Positions 3,259 through 56,728 of a DNA stretch of 64,000 nt are shown piece after piece (positions within the stretch are counted from its first letter, which is position 1; each line of letters starts with the position of its first letter). The position numbers and the translations under genes are program-made. The stretch spans positions 1 through 64,000 of the forward strand of contig QCTJ01000005.1 of assembly GCA_003211205.1 (NCBI GenBank), written 5' to 3'. The notes beneath the pieces are model-generated. The model saw only the letters and a list, made by a program, of their open reading frames with translations. It was not told the DNA's origin and searched no databases. This DNA comes from Synechococcus sp. AG-673-F03 (GTDB lineage Bacteria > Cyanobacteriota > Cyanobacteriia > PCC-6307 > Cyanobiaceae).

Positions 3259-5315
<2,057 letters not shown>

Positions 5316-52720: not shown

Positions 52721-53038
52721 TTATGCAGCTTCAGCCTCGTATTCAGACTCACTCATAGAAGGCTGAGACAACGCTCCTGCAGAGTCGGAAGCCGCATCCG
52801 AACTCAGCTCAGTGCTGTTGAGCAACTCCTGGCAATCAAGCAGCAGTTGGTCCACGTCATCGAGGCGCTGCCGTTCTTCAGCGGGCATGGTTTCTGCCTC
52901 GCTGCGCTGCTGACGGACCTGCAGTTCCAGACTCTCGAGCCTCTGTTCAAGCTTCACCAAGCGCTGCGACAAGGCGTTGAGCATCTGGGCGACATCTTCC
53001 GCCGTACGGGTGATGCGGAAGGACACAGACTGAGTCAT
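52721..53038 (-). CDS. Small coiled-coil protein
   Basis: A 105-residue protein from MTQSVSFRITRTAEDVAQ at 53038. Residues 20-60 form a clear coiled coil (MLNALSQRLVKLEQRLESLELQVRQQRSEAETM). The rest (ERQRLDDVDQLLLDCQELLNS) is acidic and helical, and the tail is Ser/Glu-rich. The frame continues to 53329, but that part is antisense to the AbrB-like gene and low-complexity, so the ATG at 53038 is preferred. Function unknown. Confidence 0.65.
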   Translation of the reverse strand: MTQSVSFRITRTAEDVAQMLNALSQRLVKLEQRLESLELQVRQQRSEAETMPAEERQRLDDVDQLLLDCQELLNSTELSSDAASDSAGALSQPSMSESEYEAEAA

Positions 53039-53156
53039 CCGAAGACAGGCGAGTGTTGGCCTGATGACAACACATGGGTGGCCAACTCTCAAGAGCAGTG
53101 CAATGAGGCCATCCCGGTCTGCCTTCAAACTGAGAGATCTGCTGCCTGCGGGTGCC

Positions 53157-53672
53157 ATGCCTTCTCTGATGACCCTGCTGGTGTATGCCCTGGCCGGCAC
53201 TGGCATGGGACTGCTCGCCATGAAAACTGGAATTCCCGCAGCACCGCTTGCGGGCGCACTGATCGGTGCTGCAGTCGTGAGCATGAGCGGACGCGTTGAA
53301 GTTGCCGCATGGCCGCCCGGTACACGCACCGCTCTTCAAATCGGAATCGGGACTGTGATCGGCACCGGACTGACGCGAACCTCTCTTGAGCAGCTGCAAC
53401 AACTCTGGAAGCCTGCGGTGCTGATCACTCTCACGCTGGTGACGACAGGTCTAGTGATTGGTTTGTGGACCAGTCGTCTGCTTGGTGTCGACCCGCTCAT
53501 CACCCTGCTGGGAGCAGCGCCCGGTGGAATCAGTGGTATGAGCCTGGTCGGAGAGGATTACGGAGTTGGCGCCGCTGTTGCTGCACTGCATGCCGTACGA
53601 CTGATCACCGTGCTTCTGGTCCTGCCACTGGTGGTGAAACTGCTCACCCCTCTCGGACTGGGCAATTCCTGA
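53157..53672 (+). CDS. AbrB-type membrane protein (single-repeat)
   Basis: A 171-residue membrane protein with about five helices. LAGTGMGLLAMKTGIPAAPLAGALIGAAVVSM, GTRTALQIGIGTVIGTGLTR and the signature ITLLGAAPGGISGMSLVGEDYGVGAAVAALHAVRLITVLLVLP are those of the AbrB membrane-protein family (once annotated as ammonia monooxygenase). Usual members have two such repeats and about 350 residues; this one has one, as in several cyanobacteria. It may work as a dimer. Substrate unknown. The start is ATG at 53157; upstream residues to 53064 overlap the divergent coiled-coil gene's spacer. Confidence 0.8.
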   Translation: MPSLMTLLVYALAGTGMGLLAMKTGIPAAPLAGALIGAAVVSMSGRVEVAAWPPGTRTALQIGIGTVIGTGLTRTSLEQLQQLWKPAVLITLTLVTTGLVIGLWTSRLLGVDPLITLLGAAPGGISGMSLVGEDYGVGAAVAALHAVRLITVLLVLPLVVKLLTPLGLGNS

Positions 53673-54157: not shown

Positions 54158-54583
54158 TTGTCATTGCGTAGGCCTGCGCGAGCCGATTGGCGGTCCACAT
54201 GGCCGCAGTCAGTCCTCCTGATTGGTGCTCTGCTGCTCACGATCCAGGCCTGCAAGAACGCCGAGAGTCCTCAAGCTGCGTCACCAGATCCCCAGGTGAA
54301 AGCATCCAGTTGCCTTGAAAACATCAACCTGGAGAGGCTGGACCAAGCCCTGGAGCATTGCAATGAAGTTGTAGCGAGTCACCCTGACAATCCAGTGCCG
54401 CTGACCGACAGGTCACTGATCCAGACATTGATGGGGCGTGATGACGAGGCCTGCGCTGATGTGATCCAGGCCATCTCCATGCTCAACGGCCGGAACCAAT
54501 CCAGAGATCCTCTGCTGAAGCATGAGCTGGAGGTCCGTCAGCAATCCTGCAAACAACGGGCCACCATGGCCGGCAACGGCTGA
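54158..54583 (+). CDS. Exported TPR-like protein
   Basis: A 141-residue protein from TTG 54158 (a second TTG is at 54164). A hydrophobic segment (SVLLIGALLLTIQAC, about 18-32) ends in a Cys that resembles a lipoprotein site, although Gln at position -2 is unusual. The mature part is helical: ENINLERLDQALEHCNEVVASHPDNPVPLTDRSLIQTLMGRDDEACADVIQAISML has TPR spacing. Three further Cys are present. It is probably co-transcribed with the secreted protein before it. The last 46 bases overlap the convergent helicase gene. Confidence 0.65.
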   Translation: MSLRRPARADWRSTWPQSVLLIGALLLTIQACKNAESPQAASPDPQVKASSCLENINLERLDQALEHCNEVVASHPDNPVPLTDRSLIQTLMGRDDEACADVIQAISMLNGRNQSRDPLLKHELEVRQQSCKQRATMAGNG

Positions 54584-56145
54584 CGCTCCACGCTGATGCG
54601 ACGTGGACCCAGCAGCAACTCGATCTTGTCTGCTTTGCTCGCCACTAGACCATCCACAAGTTGATCGGCCAAACCAAGTTGAAGCCAATGGCTGGTGAGC
54701 CCACCATCCATGCCGATGCGGTGGCAACGATCCTCAGCCTGGTCAACATCGCCTGGAGTCCAGGGACGCTCCAGAAGCACAACTTGACGTGCCCGATGCA
54801 GTGTGAATCCCAACCCTCCGCAGCCATAGGTCGCCAAAAGCAGGTCGGTTCCACCAGCCTGAAAATGATCGACCGAAGCCTGTCGCTGTTCCGGTTTTTG
54901 CCGACCGGTTAACAGTTCACCACCCAACCGCTCCTGCAGGAGCTGCAGCGGTGACACGAAGGAACTGAACAGCACGATCGCCTGACCATCAGCACGCAAC
55001 TGCTCCACAAGCGCCTGAGCAGCAGGAAGCTTGAATTCGGCCGCAATCATGCGCAGGGAGGTGAGCACGGCCAGTGATTCAGCATCCGAACGCACTTCAC
55101 CGAGCTGCACACGTCGGCGATAGTCCTCCACCACAAGACGCAGGCGGTGATCGAATCCCAGTGCCTGTTCAGCAACCAGTGCAATGCCATGGCAGCGGCG
55201 CTGCTTAGCGGGCAGACCCAGTACCTGCTGCTTGCGTCGATGCAGAACCAAGGGTCGGGTGAGGCGCCGCAACTCCTCCAAACGACTTGCACCATCGGCA
55301 CGCCAACGACGCCGACCACCCTGCTCAGTCCAGTGTCCTTGGCAAAAGATCTCCTCAAAGGAACGCTGATCGCGAGCCAACGGATGATCCATGGCCGCCA
55401 GCAGCGGAAAAAACTGAATCGGTCGACCATTACGGATGGGTGTGCCCGTCAGCATCCACACCGCCCGCAGCCGCGGATGGCGGGCCAAGCGCAACAGGGC
55501 CTGGGTCCGCTGAGCCTGAAGCGACTGGGCGTAATGGGCTTCATCAACCACCAGAAGTGTTCCGGCTTGAGGAAGGTCGGCCGGCAACCGGGCCCAGCTG
55601 TGCAGAGTGCAGTCGAGATCCAGAGACTCCACTTCGCGCTGCCAGTGCGGGTGAAGTCCCACGGGAGCAATCACCATCAAGCGCAGAGGCACGGCACGCA
55701 TCAGTGCGCGAGCCGCCAGCAGCGACGTCAGCGTCTTTCCCAGACCCATCTCATCTGCAAGCAAGGCACCGCGACGGGCTAGCAGCCATCGAGCACCCGA
55801 CCGTTGATGAGGCAGCGGTACACGGCCGTCAGCTAGGGGCTGATCCAGGCCAGCACTGGCGATCAGCTCGCGGTGACTAGGAAGTGGTGGCAGTGGATGA
55901 CGGTGCCAGTCCAGCCAACGCACCAGTTCGTCGTCAACCTGAAAACGTGAACCCAAACGGTCGAGCAGACACTCGGCGGCGGCCAGTGGAAATTCCCAGC
56001 CATGCTGCGAGCCTTTCCAGAGTCCCCGAGGCCTGATCCGGCCCATCTGCGCATGGGTGACGGCATCAAAGGGGTAGGTGACCCTCACCAGTCCTGAAGG
56101 GGTCAGCCCAAGGCTGCAGCAGGACGTTAATGATGCCGTAACCAC
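54538..56145 (-). CDS. HARP-SNF2 family helicase (SMARCAL1/ZRANB3-like)
   Basis: A 535-residue SNF2 ATPase. Residues 20-70 (VRVTYPFDAVTHAQMGRI ... GWEFPLAAAECLLDRL) resemble the HARP substrate-recognition domain of SMARCAL1. The helicase follows: LPHQRSGARWLL at 111-122, Walker A DEMGLGKT at 131-138, DEAH at 201-204, MLTGTPIRNG at 231-240, VLFSSFVSP at 391, GCGGLGFTLH at 441-450 and DVDQAEDRCHRIG at 466-478. SNF2 proteins of this type anneal or remodel branched DNA at stalled forks. The start is a GTG at 56145. It is divergent from an HNH nuclease across a 142-base spacer with a perfect palindrome. Confidence 0.85.
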   Translation of the reverse strand: MVTASLTSCCSLGLTPSGLVRVTYPFDAVTHAQMGRIRPRGLWKGSQHGWEFPLAAAECLLDRLGSRFQVDDELVRWLDWHRHPLPPLPSHRELIASAGLDQPLADGRVPLPHQRSGARWLLARRGALLADEMGLGKTLTSLLAARALMRAVPLRLMVIAPVGLHPHWQREVESLDLDCTLHSWARLPADLPQAGTLLVVDEAHYAQSLQAQRTQALLRLARHPRLRAVWMLTGTPIRNGRPIQFFPLLAAMDHPLARDQRSFEEIFCQGHWTEQGGRRRWRADGASRLEELRRLTRPLVLHRRKQQVLGLPAKQRRCHGIALVAEQALGFDHRLRLVVEDYRRRVQLGEVRSDAESLAVLTSLRMIAAEFKLPAAQALVEQLRADGQAIVLFSSFVSPLQLLQERLGGELLTGRQKPEQRQASVDHFQAGGTDLLLATYGCGGLGFTLHRARQVVLLERPWTPGDVDQAEDRCHRIGMDGGLTSHWLQLGLADQLVDGLVASKADKIELLLGPRRISVERQPLPAMVARCLQDC

Positions 56146-56172
56146 AATTCAGCAAATGTAATTGTATTGCTT

Positions 56173-56189
56173 CTTGTGATCATCACAAG
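56173..56189. promoter_or_regulatory. Perfect palindrome between the helicase and HNH genes
   Basis: CTTGTGAT-C-ATCACAAG has perfect eight-base arms around one C. It lies 28 bases from the helicase start and 99 from the HNH start. The inner TGTGA/TCACA half-sites are like CRP half-sites, but their spacing is three and not six, so a CRP site is doubtful. It may be an operator for one or both divergent genes. Confidence 0.45.
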
Positions 56190-56287
56190 GGGCATGAAGC
56201 TCAAAGATCACACTTGAAAAAGTGCCAAAAATGCAGCGAAGAACACATTGACGAACCCAGCGAAAGCGCCAGAATTCTGTCAACCGA

Positions 56288-56728
56288 ATGATTCGGATGC
56301 ATAACAGGGACGCGGTTTTCCTTGAAGATCTATGCCCCAAACTGCGAGTCCGAAGATGGCGTCAATCGCTACATACTTATACCGGCAAAAGCTGTATTTA
56401 CTGCGGAAAACAGTCTGAATCGATCGACCATATTCTTCCAAGAGCCAAGGGTGGTTTAAGCATTACTGAAAATTGCGTTCCGGCCTGCCTCTCATGCAAC
56501 GGACACAAATCTGATTCAGATGTTTTTGATTGGTATCGGCGTCAACGCTTTTACGATCCACGACGAGCTATGGCGATCCGTGCCTGGATGGATGGTGATT
56601 TGCGTCTTGCCCTGAGACTTCTGCAGTGGGCTCAACCTGAACTGAATCAAACCACCAATGCATCAATGGCACCTGATGCATCACTCAATAACCAGAGACA
56701 TCAGGACTGGGGCCTCGAGGCTGCCTGA
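56288..56728 (+). CDS. HNH endonuclease
   Basis: A 146-residue HNH-family nuclease. The zinc-finger-supported beta-beta-alpha motif is complete: CIYCG (Cys36, Cys39), SIDHILPRAKGG (Asp47, His48), ENCVPACLSCNGHKSD (Asn62, Cys67, Cys70, Asn71, Lys74). The remaining C-terminal 60 residues include RFYDPRRAMAIRAWMDGDLRLALRLL and a variable Asn/Gln-rich tail. HNH proteins of this form nick or cut DNA with a divalent metal. The gene is divergent from the HARP-SNF2 helicase; the two together recall the domain content of ZRANB3. The ATG at 56288 is chosen; it lies in the AT-rich spacer. Confidence 0.88.
   Translation: MIRMHNRDAVFLEDLCPKLRVRRWRQSLHTYTGKSCIYCGKQSESIDHILPRAKGGLSITENCVPACLSCNGHKSDSDVFDWYRRQRFYDPRRAMAIRAWMDGDLRLALRLLQWAQPELNQTTNASMAPDASLNNQRHQDWGLEAA

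Follow-up and report, generated by a model that had tools for sequence, protein, structure and literature searches.

Locus organization

The window, that is, the whole 64,000-nucleotide stretch of Synechococcus sp. AG-673-F03 DNA that was analysed, contains two intact open reading frames that stand head to head, 142 nt apart. One codes for a 535 amino acid SNF2 helicase with a GTG start and the other for a 146 amino acid HNH protein. The features of the locus are:

54538..56145, minus strand: SNF2-family (superfamily 2) DNA helicase/translocase (Pfam, 30-orthologue alignment, phrog_62, AlphaFold model)
54712..54741, minus strand: helicase motif VI, QAEDRCHRIG, residues 469-478 (orthologue alignment)
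55534..55545, minus strand: DEAH box (Walker B), residues 201-204 (D201-E202-A203-H204 invariant in 30/30 orthologues)
55732..55755, minus strand: Walker A motif, DEMGLGKT, residues 131-138 (M133-K137 invariant in 30/30)
55954..56088, minus strand: putative HARP-like N-terminal segment of the helicase, residues ~20-64 (via sub-threshold HARP matches of relatives)
56161..56188, minus strand: distinct promoter-like site of the helicase gene (by consensus match alone)
56232..56253, plus strand: conserved HNH upstream element TGCAGNNNNNRACACRTTGACG, ending in a -35-like TTGACG
56288..56728, plus strand: HNH endonuclease of the zinc-ribbon type, CxxC ... DH ... N ... CxxCN (ORF, Pfam, alignment, 4H9D match)
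56393..56509, plus strand: HNH catalytic and zinc core, residues 36-74 (invariant residues in 32 orthologues)

A sequence-only reading of this DNA had described a 535-residue SNF2 ATPase and, divergent from it, a 146-residue HNH nuclease with its zinc and catalytic residues. These points are borne out by the reading frames, the domain matches and the conserved residues. It had further suggested that the two genes may form a fork-remodelling or DNA-cutting pair for repair or defence, possibly a two-gene counterpart of eukaryotic ZRANB3; the findings below do not support a functional pair.

The helicase

The helicase matches the Pfam families SNF2-rel_dom (E 4.4e-23) and Helicase_C (E 2.2e-12). 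The ends of its Walker A motif (D131, E132 and T138) vary among the 30 aligned orthologues, and motif VI is invariant in all 30 at Q469, A470, E471, D472, R473, H475, R476 and G478. The AlphaFold model has a mean pLDDT of 85.7, and its best match in a structure search was the ISW1 ATPase (Z 27.1, rmsd 2.7, 382 residues). The phrog_62 DNA helicase profile aligns with residues 79-487 (E 4.5e-62), and viral relatives reach 41% identity. This compact ATPase thus falls within the SMARCAL1-like SNF2 type known from phages and bacteria.

The HARP-like segment, which had also been claimed from the sequence, is the weakest part of this anatomy and is suggested solely through intermediate relatives. Five of ten phage or bacterial relatives possess a sub-threshold HARP match at the equivalent place (E 0.0014-0.15; 12.1-18.5 bits against the Pfam cut-off of 25). 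None of the 30 orthologues matched Pfam HARP at E <= 10, a search in which the HMMER filters discard most weak matches. A profile of the N-terminal segment retrieved no HARP structure from the PDB sequences at E <= 10, an absence that proves little.

Within open-licence papers we found no literature on this helicase-HNH pair. PMC6102989 lists a Prochlorococcus SNF2/RAD54 helicase of ~3.2 kb, which was ruled out as the present gene on length (1.6 kb), and PMC9716671 reports that a Synechococcus-like MAG carries an SNF2 gene with the label drmD.

The HNH endonuclease

The HNH protein contains a Pfam HNH domain (PF01844; E 4.1e-9, 36.9 bits, above the curated cut-off of 21.4). Residues C36, C39, D47, H48, N62, C67, C70 and N71 are invariant in all 32 orthologues; in the last motif, CxxCN, the position two residues further on (H73) is variable. 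Its best solved sequence relative is 4H9D (E 1.1e-8), and ZRANB3 is not one of the 12 solved chains that a profile of the HNH family retrieves at E <= 0.1, an absence which again proves little. The structural model is of low confidence (pLDDT 65.3) and matched nothing at E <= 0.001; with this same model the top match gave Z 6.6 (rmsd 2.9, 66 residues), and endonuclease VII is among the structural matches (1e7l; Z 5.2, rmsd 2.5, 57 residues).

Among the 30 phage matches listed of 241 records, the best are mostly cyanophage HNH proteins with 38-44% identity to residues 7-102, and most are annotated just as HNH or as putative endonuclease. Together with a match to phrog_2214 (E 1.3e-21) and the extra gene copies found in one genus (see below), this could point to a homing-type endonuclease of cyanophage origin, domesticated or still selfish. 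We consider such an origin unlikely. The listed phage matches span no more than 55-66% of its length and leave the conserved stretch past residue 102 uncovered; the gene is strongly constrained, has a conserved upstream element, occurs in nearly every genome of the family and keeps its position in the regions examined, and outside the one genus there is a single match per genome.

Genome G183, probably strain MED4, carries a generic HNH paralogue of 170-190 aa near 1.47 Mb, where PMM1528 would be expected from its gene number. A UV response of the present gene, by way of PMM1528, the HNH gene raised under UV in PMC2921402, was set aside, as PMM1528 is probably that generic paralogue.

We infer both a role in repair and the biochemical activities of the two proteins. 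The helicase, to judge by its family, would most likely translocate on branched or single-/double-stranded DNA at the expense of ATP, with strand annealing or fork regression as the outcome. The HNH protein is a free-standing zinc-ribbon nuclease that, to judge by its 4H9D- and endonuclease VII-like relatives, most likely nicks branched or otherwise particular DNA.

Promoter-like sites

A copy of TGCAGNNNNNRACACRTTGACG with at most one mismatch lies just upstream of the HNH gene in 23 of 24 genomes of the genus. The element is seen less exactly in some genomes that possess the HNH gene alone, and was not evident in G150 or at the extra HNH copies of G183. Two promoter-like sites occur in 2.7 kb, compared with a mean of 0.8 (sd 0.8) in shuffled sequence. 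The HNH gene is apparently driven from a conserved promoter element of its own. No LexA-like site that might serve as a shared DNA-damage operator was found in 18 intergenic regions scanned with a single consensus.

Distribution, gene loss and synteny

Orthologues of the two genes were found in one picocyanobacterial family only. Among its 272 genomes, 152 carry both genes, 111 the HNH gene alone and 9 neither; the helicase gene never occurs alone. The HNH gene is therefore present in 263 genomes, including all 87 of a streamlined Prochlorococcus-like genus (g48), most of which have two to four copies.

Both genes are absent together from G133 and from the G070/g57 clade. As these are nested in the FastTree tree of the family, their joint absences are losses. 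Roughly two events are involved, and in one of these both genes were cleanly deleted together. The tree places two g48 genomes at the base of the family, presumably through long-branch attraction.

Eleven HNH-only regions were fetched from the 111 genomes of this kind. In all 11 the right-hand block is unchanged and the helicase gene is missing, with no remnant of it found in these regions; in 10 the TPR gene is missing as well. The median identity of the HNH protein to that of the window is 75.7% in these 11 regions, compared with 73.5% in 19 regions that have the helicase. Each of the seven other genes compared shows the opposite, being less similar in the HNH-only set. The level of conservation of HNH falls between accB/pdxA and guaA/efp. 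In the regions compared, the HNH gene is not relaxed where the helicase has been lost.

In the family the gene order is DUF6554, TPR-like, helicase, HNH, SDR-like, pdxA, accB and efp, with further genes on either side. Among 156 genomes with both genes, these are adjacent and divergent in 155, the remaining one having them on two contigs, and they are separate genes in all 156. As an adjacency control, neighbours within 1 kb were scored in 19 diverse regions chosen by us out of the 156. The helicase-HNH pair was found in 19/19, and so were five other pairs: HNH-SDR, SDR-pdxA, pdxA-accB, accB-efp and efp-cyp. The pairs cyp-thiL (18/18), TPR-helicase (16/16) and DUF6554-TPR (16/16) were likewise complete. 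Towards its left end the block holds together less well than the helicase-HNH pair does: no more than 13 of the 19 fetched stretches contain guaA and cbiD, and within 1 kb the scores were 12/13 for guaA-cbiD and 13/14 for AGT-g52048. Because the right-hand neighbours are equally conserved, we reject the conserved pairing as proof of a functional link. Co-evolution of rates gave no special signal either: with a residual correlation of 0.23, helicase and HNH come 11th among 36 gene pairs, although they narrowly top the eight pairs that involve HNH (0.232 vs 0.227 for HNH-SDR).

The same block bears on the idea that motor and nuclease together defend the cell against phage or foreign DNA. In PADLOC, the SNF2 core is recognised by the profiles ZorD, DpdE and DrmD (best E 8.3e-24) and the HNH protein by profiles of candidate-defence HNH proteins (best E 1.1e-7). 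Any SNF2 or HNH domain would be expected to give such matches, however, and the NCBIfam scores are far below the cut-offs (ZorD 61.6 bits vs 1500, DrmD 39.2 vs 950, DpdE 36.2 vs 500). Defence islands are typically mobile and patchy, whereas the block at this locus is inherited vertically and adjoins housekeeping genes. We regard a defence function as very improbable. No DNA methylase family appeared among the 16 neighbouring proteins scanned (47.9-62.3 kb).

HNH partners of helicase relatives outside the family were sought with a scan for the CxxC-type HNH motif, to which HNH types lacking CxxC pairs are invisible, as are loci truncated at the end of a contig. In 85 listed viral and phylum loci there was one motif match (L210), which was read as a zinc finger. 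In 80 listed named-genome loci there were two (L288 and L290), both belonging to the same family block. A third contig of this block, L289, ends beside the helicase. The scan of the listed loci revealed no convincing HNH domain beside or fused to the helicase relatives outside the family.

Interpretation

We conclude, with a probability of roughly three in four, that these are two independently acting genes of the DNA-repair type in an order-conserved syntenic block and not a two-gene ZRANB3. The helicase and HNH genes would stand side by side since the order of the block is kept throughout the picocyanobacterial family. The HNH protein does not seem to need the helicase, as its gene persists in place, equally conserved, in the regions compared that have lost the helicase.

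The rival proposal is a two-protein counterpart of ZRANB3, in which a stalled fork would be remodelled by the SNF2 motor and then cut by the HNH nuclease that this motor recruits. Divergent adjacency in all but one genome speaks for it, as do the lack of any helicase-only genome and the joint absences, both of which would be expected if the helicase needed HNH, and the nearness of 4H9D to the ZRANB3 nuclease domain (see below). Against it are the five equally adjacent pairs, the unrelaxed HNH gene in genomes without the helicase, the separate promoter-like sites with an upstream element linked to HNH, the lack of convincing HNH partners in the loci scanned outside the family and an HNH domain without the ZRANB3 insert. 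We hold it to be improbable. The pairing had been regarded as incidental should most relatives keep HNH without the helicase and the helicase alone be universal. Neither was found: fewer than half of the HNH-bearing genomes (111 of 263) lack the helicase, and none of the helicase-bearing ones (0 of 152) lacks HNH. From the latter count, a one-way dependence of the helicase on HNH may exist.

It is possible, though we advance it tentatively, that the HNH gene matters more than the pair, HNH being a family-specific housekeeping DNA nuclease and the neighbouring helicase a dispensable helper in larger genomes. The likeness to a bacterial ZRANB3 is easily over-read, since 155/156 seems overwhelming until neighbouring pairs are found to score alike. 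The small Prochlorococcus-like genomes with HNH alone and the larger ones with HNH and helicase constitute a natural experiment through which one can test what a nuclease present in nearly all picocyanobacteria does.

Comparison with known systems

Like the window protein, the phrog_62 phage helicases and their bacterial relatives possess an SNF2 core with a DEMGLGKT-type Walker A motif, a DEAH box and a QAEDR motif VI, with a putative HARP-like segment ahead of it; identities to the relatives compared are 26-41%. Six of them (L193-L197 and L199) carry an N-terminal extension of ~100 aa, whereas the window helicase is shorter and lacks it. It also differs in that its gene is chromosomal and retained within a single family. 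It shares with SMARCAL1/HARP an SNF2 motor, putatively behind a HARP-like segment, but the picocyanobacterial family shows no Pfam-level HARP match. RPA, whose binding motif counts among the features of the SMARCAL1/HARP type, is eukaryotic.

With ZRANB3 the locus has in common an SNF2 motor and a CxxC-type HNH domain with D-H and N catalytic residues. ZRANB3 is one polypeptide; here there are two open reading frames on opposite strands. Aligned by eye, D47, H48 and N62 correspond to D1020, H1021 and N1036 of ZRANB3. The third catalytic histidine of the human protein is H1045 according to PMC5481773, and its counterpart, again by eye, would fall at the CxxCN motif, with invariant N71 and variable H73. 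The same paper describes a helical insert in the HNH domain specific to ZRANB3; with seven residues between C39 and D47 the window protein has no such insert, nor has any of the 32 orthologues. No NZF or other zinc-finger family is among the 18 Pfam families matched by the 30 helicase orthologues at E <= 10.

4H9D, which among solved chains is nearest in sequence to the HNH protein, is the HNH nicking endonuclease of Geobacter metallireducens; PMC5481773 names it a close structural homologue of the nuclease domain of ZRANB3. Compared with 4H9D and phage T4 endonuclease VII, the window HNH family has an extra conserved C-terminal part, predicted to be helical. The free-standing HNH proteins of cyanophages, among the 30 listed of 241, resemble the window protein over the core.

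The helicase and HNH genes

The SNF2 helicase gene and its divergent neighbour start head to head, 142 nt apart, with a conserved element upstream of the latter:

54538–56145, minus strand: SNF2 helicase, 535 aa (ORF; Pfam SNF2-rel_dom and Helicase_C above cut-off)
56232–56253, plus strand: conserved element TGCAGNNNNNRACACRTTGACG, upstream of the HNH gene
56288–56728, plus strand: HNH protein, 146 aa (ORF; Pfam HNH above cut-off)

The ORF coordinates and Pfam matches bear out the positions and identities assigned in the sequence-only reading, which had also described the helicase motifs and the HNH zinc and catalytic residues as intact. These key residues are indeed invariant: the Walker A core (M133-K137), the DEAH box and 8 of 10 motif VI residues in 30/30 helicase orthologues, and the zinc cysteines, D47-H48, N62 and N71 in 32/32 HNH orthologues. 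Neither alignment shows signs of decay. Elsewhere in the window, two ORFs called from their first possible starts overlap by 266 bp on opposite strands (52721–53329, minus; 53064–53672, plus).

Distribution

Among 60 relatives searched, close matches (at least 51% identity for the helicase and 68% for the HNH) were confined to the window's own picocyanobacterial family. Helicase matches at E ≤ 1e-30 occurred in 35 of 339 phylum genomes: 28 from the family, with E values no higher than 1e-263, and seven from outside it (best 1.7e-64). HNH matches at E ≤ 1e-14 occurred in 49, comprising 47 family genomes, the best place in each scoring at least 220 bits, and two outside at 70 and 56 bits. The family set comprised 272 genomes, of which 271 are 90% complete or more and one, the source of the window, is 81% complete. 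The helicase was present in 152 (E ≤ 1e-60) and the HNH in 263 (E ≤ 1e-25); 152 carried both, 111 the HNH only, nine (G070, G133 and G280–G286) neither, and none the helicase only. The HNH protein is a family-specific, almost universal predicted nuclease.

All but one (G150) of the 111 HNH-only genomes belong to genera g4 and g48–g51, with genomes of 1.4–2.0 Mb; judging by this genome size, we take these genera to be Prochlorococcus and kin. Genus g48, which is Prochlorococcus-like, mostly has two to four HNH copies; those of G183 lie at approximately 30.6 kb, 938 kb and 1,349 kb (L115, L116 and L279), and elsewhere in g48 the match to a second copy is in several cases interrupted by stops. 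An IMG/VR 'viral' contig (L273, HNH at 3797–4153) is probably a picocyanobacterial chromosome fragment rather than a virus, since AbrB-like and DUF6554 genes stand upstream of its HNH gene.

Gene order and gene loss

The conserved divergent pairing that the sequence-only reading proposed to look for was found in 155 of 156 genomes with both genes (the 152 and four less complete relatives), with 74–277 bp (median 153) between matched ends. In the exception, G073, the HNH match starts at base 3 of another contig. As a synteny control, the window's neighbouring genes were mapped onto 20 helicase-bearing regions picked for genus diversity. All 20 shared the order DUF6554, helicase, HNH, SDR-like, pdxA, accB, efp, cyp; 17 of them also gave a match to the TPR-like gene and 19 to thiL. 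At its left end the block is looser, guaA lying within 14 of the 20 stretches and elsewhere farther off or beyond the fetched stretch. The labels guaA, cbiD, pdxA, accB, efp and thiL are supported by NCBIfam; SDR, cyp, AGT and TPR are looser. With the nearly identical G001 left out, helicase-HNH, HNH-SDR, SDR-pdxA, pdxA-accB, accB-efp and efp-cyp each lay within 1 kb in 19/19 regions, as did guaA-cbiD in 12/13 and AGT-g52048 in 13/14. Because other block pairs are equally adjacent, the conserved helicase-HNH pairing has little weight by itself. Inherited gene order most likely accounts for the pair, whose members are two ordinary, well-kept genes predicted to act in DNA processing.

In 11 HNH-only regions the helicase is gone and the block kept, and no helicase remnant was detected. 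Both genes are cleanly absent from G133, between the TPR-like and SDR genes, and are missing from G070 and seven genomes of genus g57; in four fetched g57 stretches the SDR gene stands beside a TPR-like or AbrB-like gene. In a FastTree phylogeny built from the block's proteins, concatenated for 45 taxa with missing data, G133 and the G070-g57 group both branch inside the family, and the joint absences are therefore losses. Helicase-only absence is common, HNH-only loss was unseen, and joint loss occurred about twice. The strongest case that can still be made for a link between the two genes is this asymmetry, which rests on few events.

Probable independence of the HNH gene

An HNH protein serving the helicase would be expected to relax once the helicase was lost. 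The HNH proteins of the 11 HNH-only regions have a median identity to that of the window of 75.7%, versus 73.5% for 19 helicase-bearing ones, and SDR, pdxA, accB, efp, cyp, thiL and DUF6554 all have lower identity in the HNH-only set. In the regions compared, the HNH is unrelaxed after helicase loss. The helicase-HNH residual rate correlation (0.23) ranks 11 of 36 gene pairs and tops the eight HNH pairs by a hair.

The element TGCAGNNNNNRACACRTTGACG lies upstream of HNH in 23 of 24 genomes of the window's genus (at most one mismatch), with four matches elsewhere; a reversed control gave one match in all. A less exact copy is recognisable in some HNH-only genomes; none was evident in G150 or the extra HNH copies of G183. 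The element ends in a -35-like hexamer, which belongs to a promoter-like site for HNH, and a separate promoter-like site faces the helicase. The element is possibly a dedicated operator or strong promoter. The HNH is the better follow-up subject of the two.

Relationships of the helicase

The closest family profile is phrog_62, a phage DNA helicase (E 4.5e-62), and relatives on viral contigs reach 41% identity among the 80 listed of 559 confirmed. The helicase represents a chromosomal lineage of a type already known from phages and bacteria. The HARP-like N-terminus claimed for it stands with moderate confidence: with the threshold relaxed to E ≤ 10, Pfam HARP still matched this segment in none of the 30 orthologues, but of 10 phage or bacterial relatives that align with the window's helicase across the segment, 5 have sub-threshold HARP matches there (E 0.0014–0.15).

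One viral SNF2 relative (749 aa; L238, 3362–5608, plus strand), read by eye, seemingly has two tandem HARP-like segments, with one sub-threshold HARP match; two tandem HARP segments are the arrangement of vertebrate SMARCAL1. In a relative from another cyanobacterium (G531; L277, 5964–9428, plus strand), the DEAH box region contains an intein of about 350 aa (Pfam Intein_splicing E 9.3e-7, below cut-off).

Comparison with ZRANB3

The search for HNH domains fused or adjacent to helicase relatives, also proposed earlier, gave no convincing case outside the family in the loci scanned. A CxxC-type HNH motif scan around 80 listed viral and five phylum loci returned a single match, read instead as a zinc finger. 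The same scan of 80 listed named genome loci returned two, both the window family's block: L290, a Synechococcus MAG, and L288, a contig with the picocyanobacterial block, including helicase and HNH, that was probably misbinned into its MAG, which bears the name Bifidobacterium breve. Bacterial 'ZRANB3-like proteins' are named in a figure legend (PMC5481773), so such forms are known elsewhere.

That paper describes an HNH insert, required for cleavage, that is particular to ZRANB3 and to stand-alone HNH proteins from two bacteria (PMC5481773). Unlike ZRANB3, the window HNH has no insert, with seven residues between C39 and D47; judged from its sequence against this description, it is not a ZRANB3 HNH. 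With the insert lacking, the pairing matched by other block pairs and the HNH unrelaxed without the helicase, the proposal that the two genes form a two-gene counterpart of eukaryotic ZRANB3 was not upheld. The best solved relative of the window HNH is 4H9D (E 1.1e-8), which the same paper names, along with T4 endonuclease VII, as the nearest structural match to the ZRANB3 HNH (PMC5481773); the two nucleases may therefore act on similar DNA.
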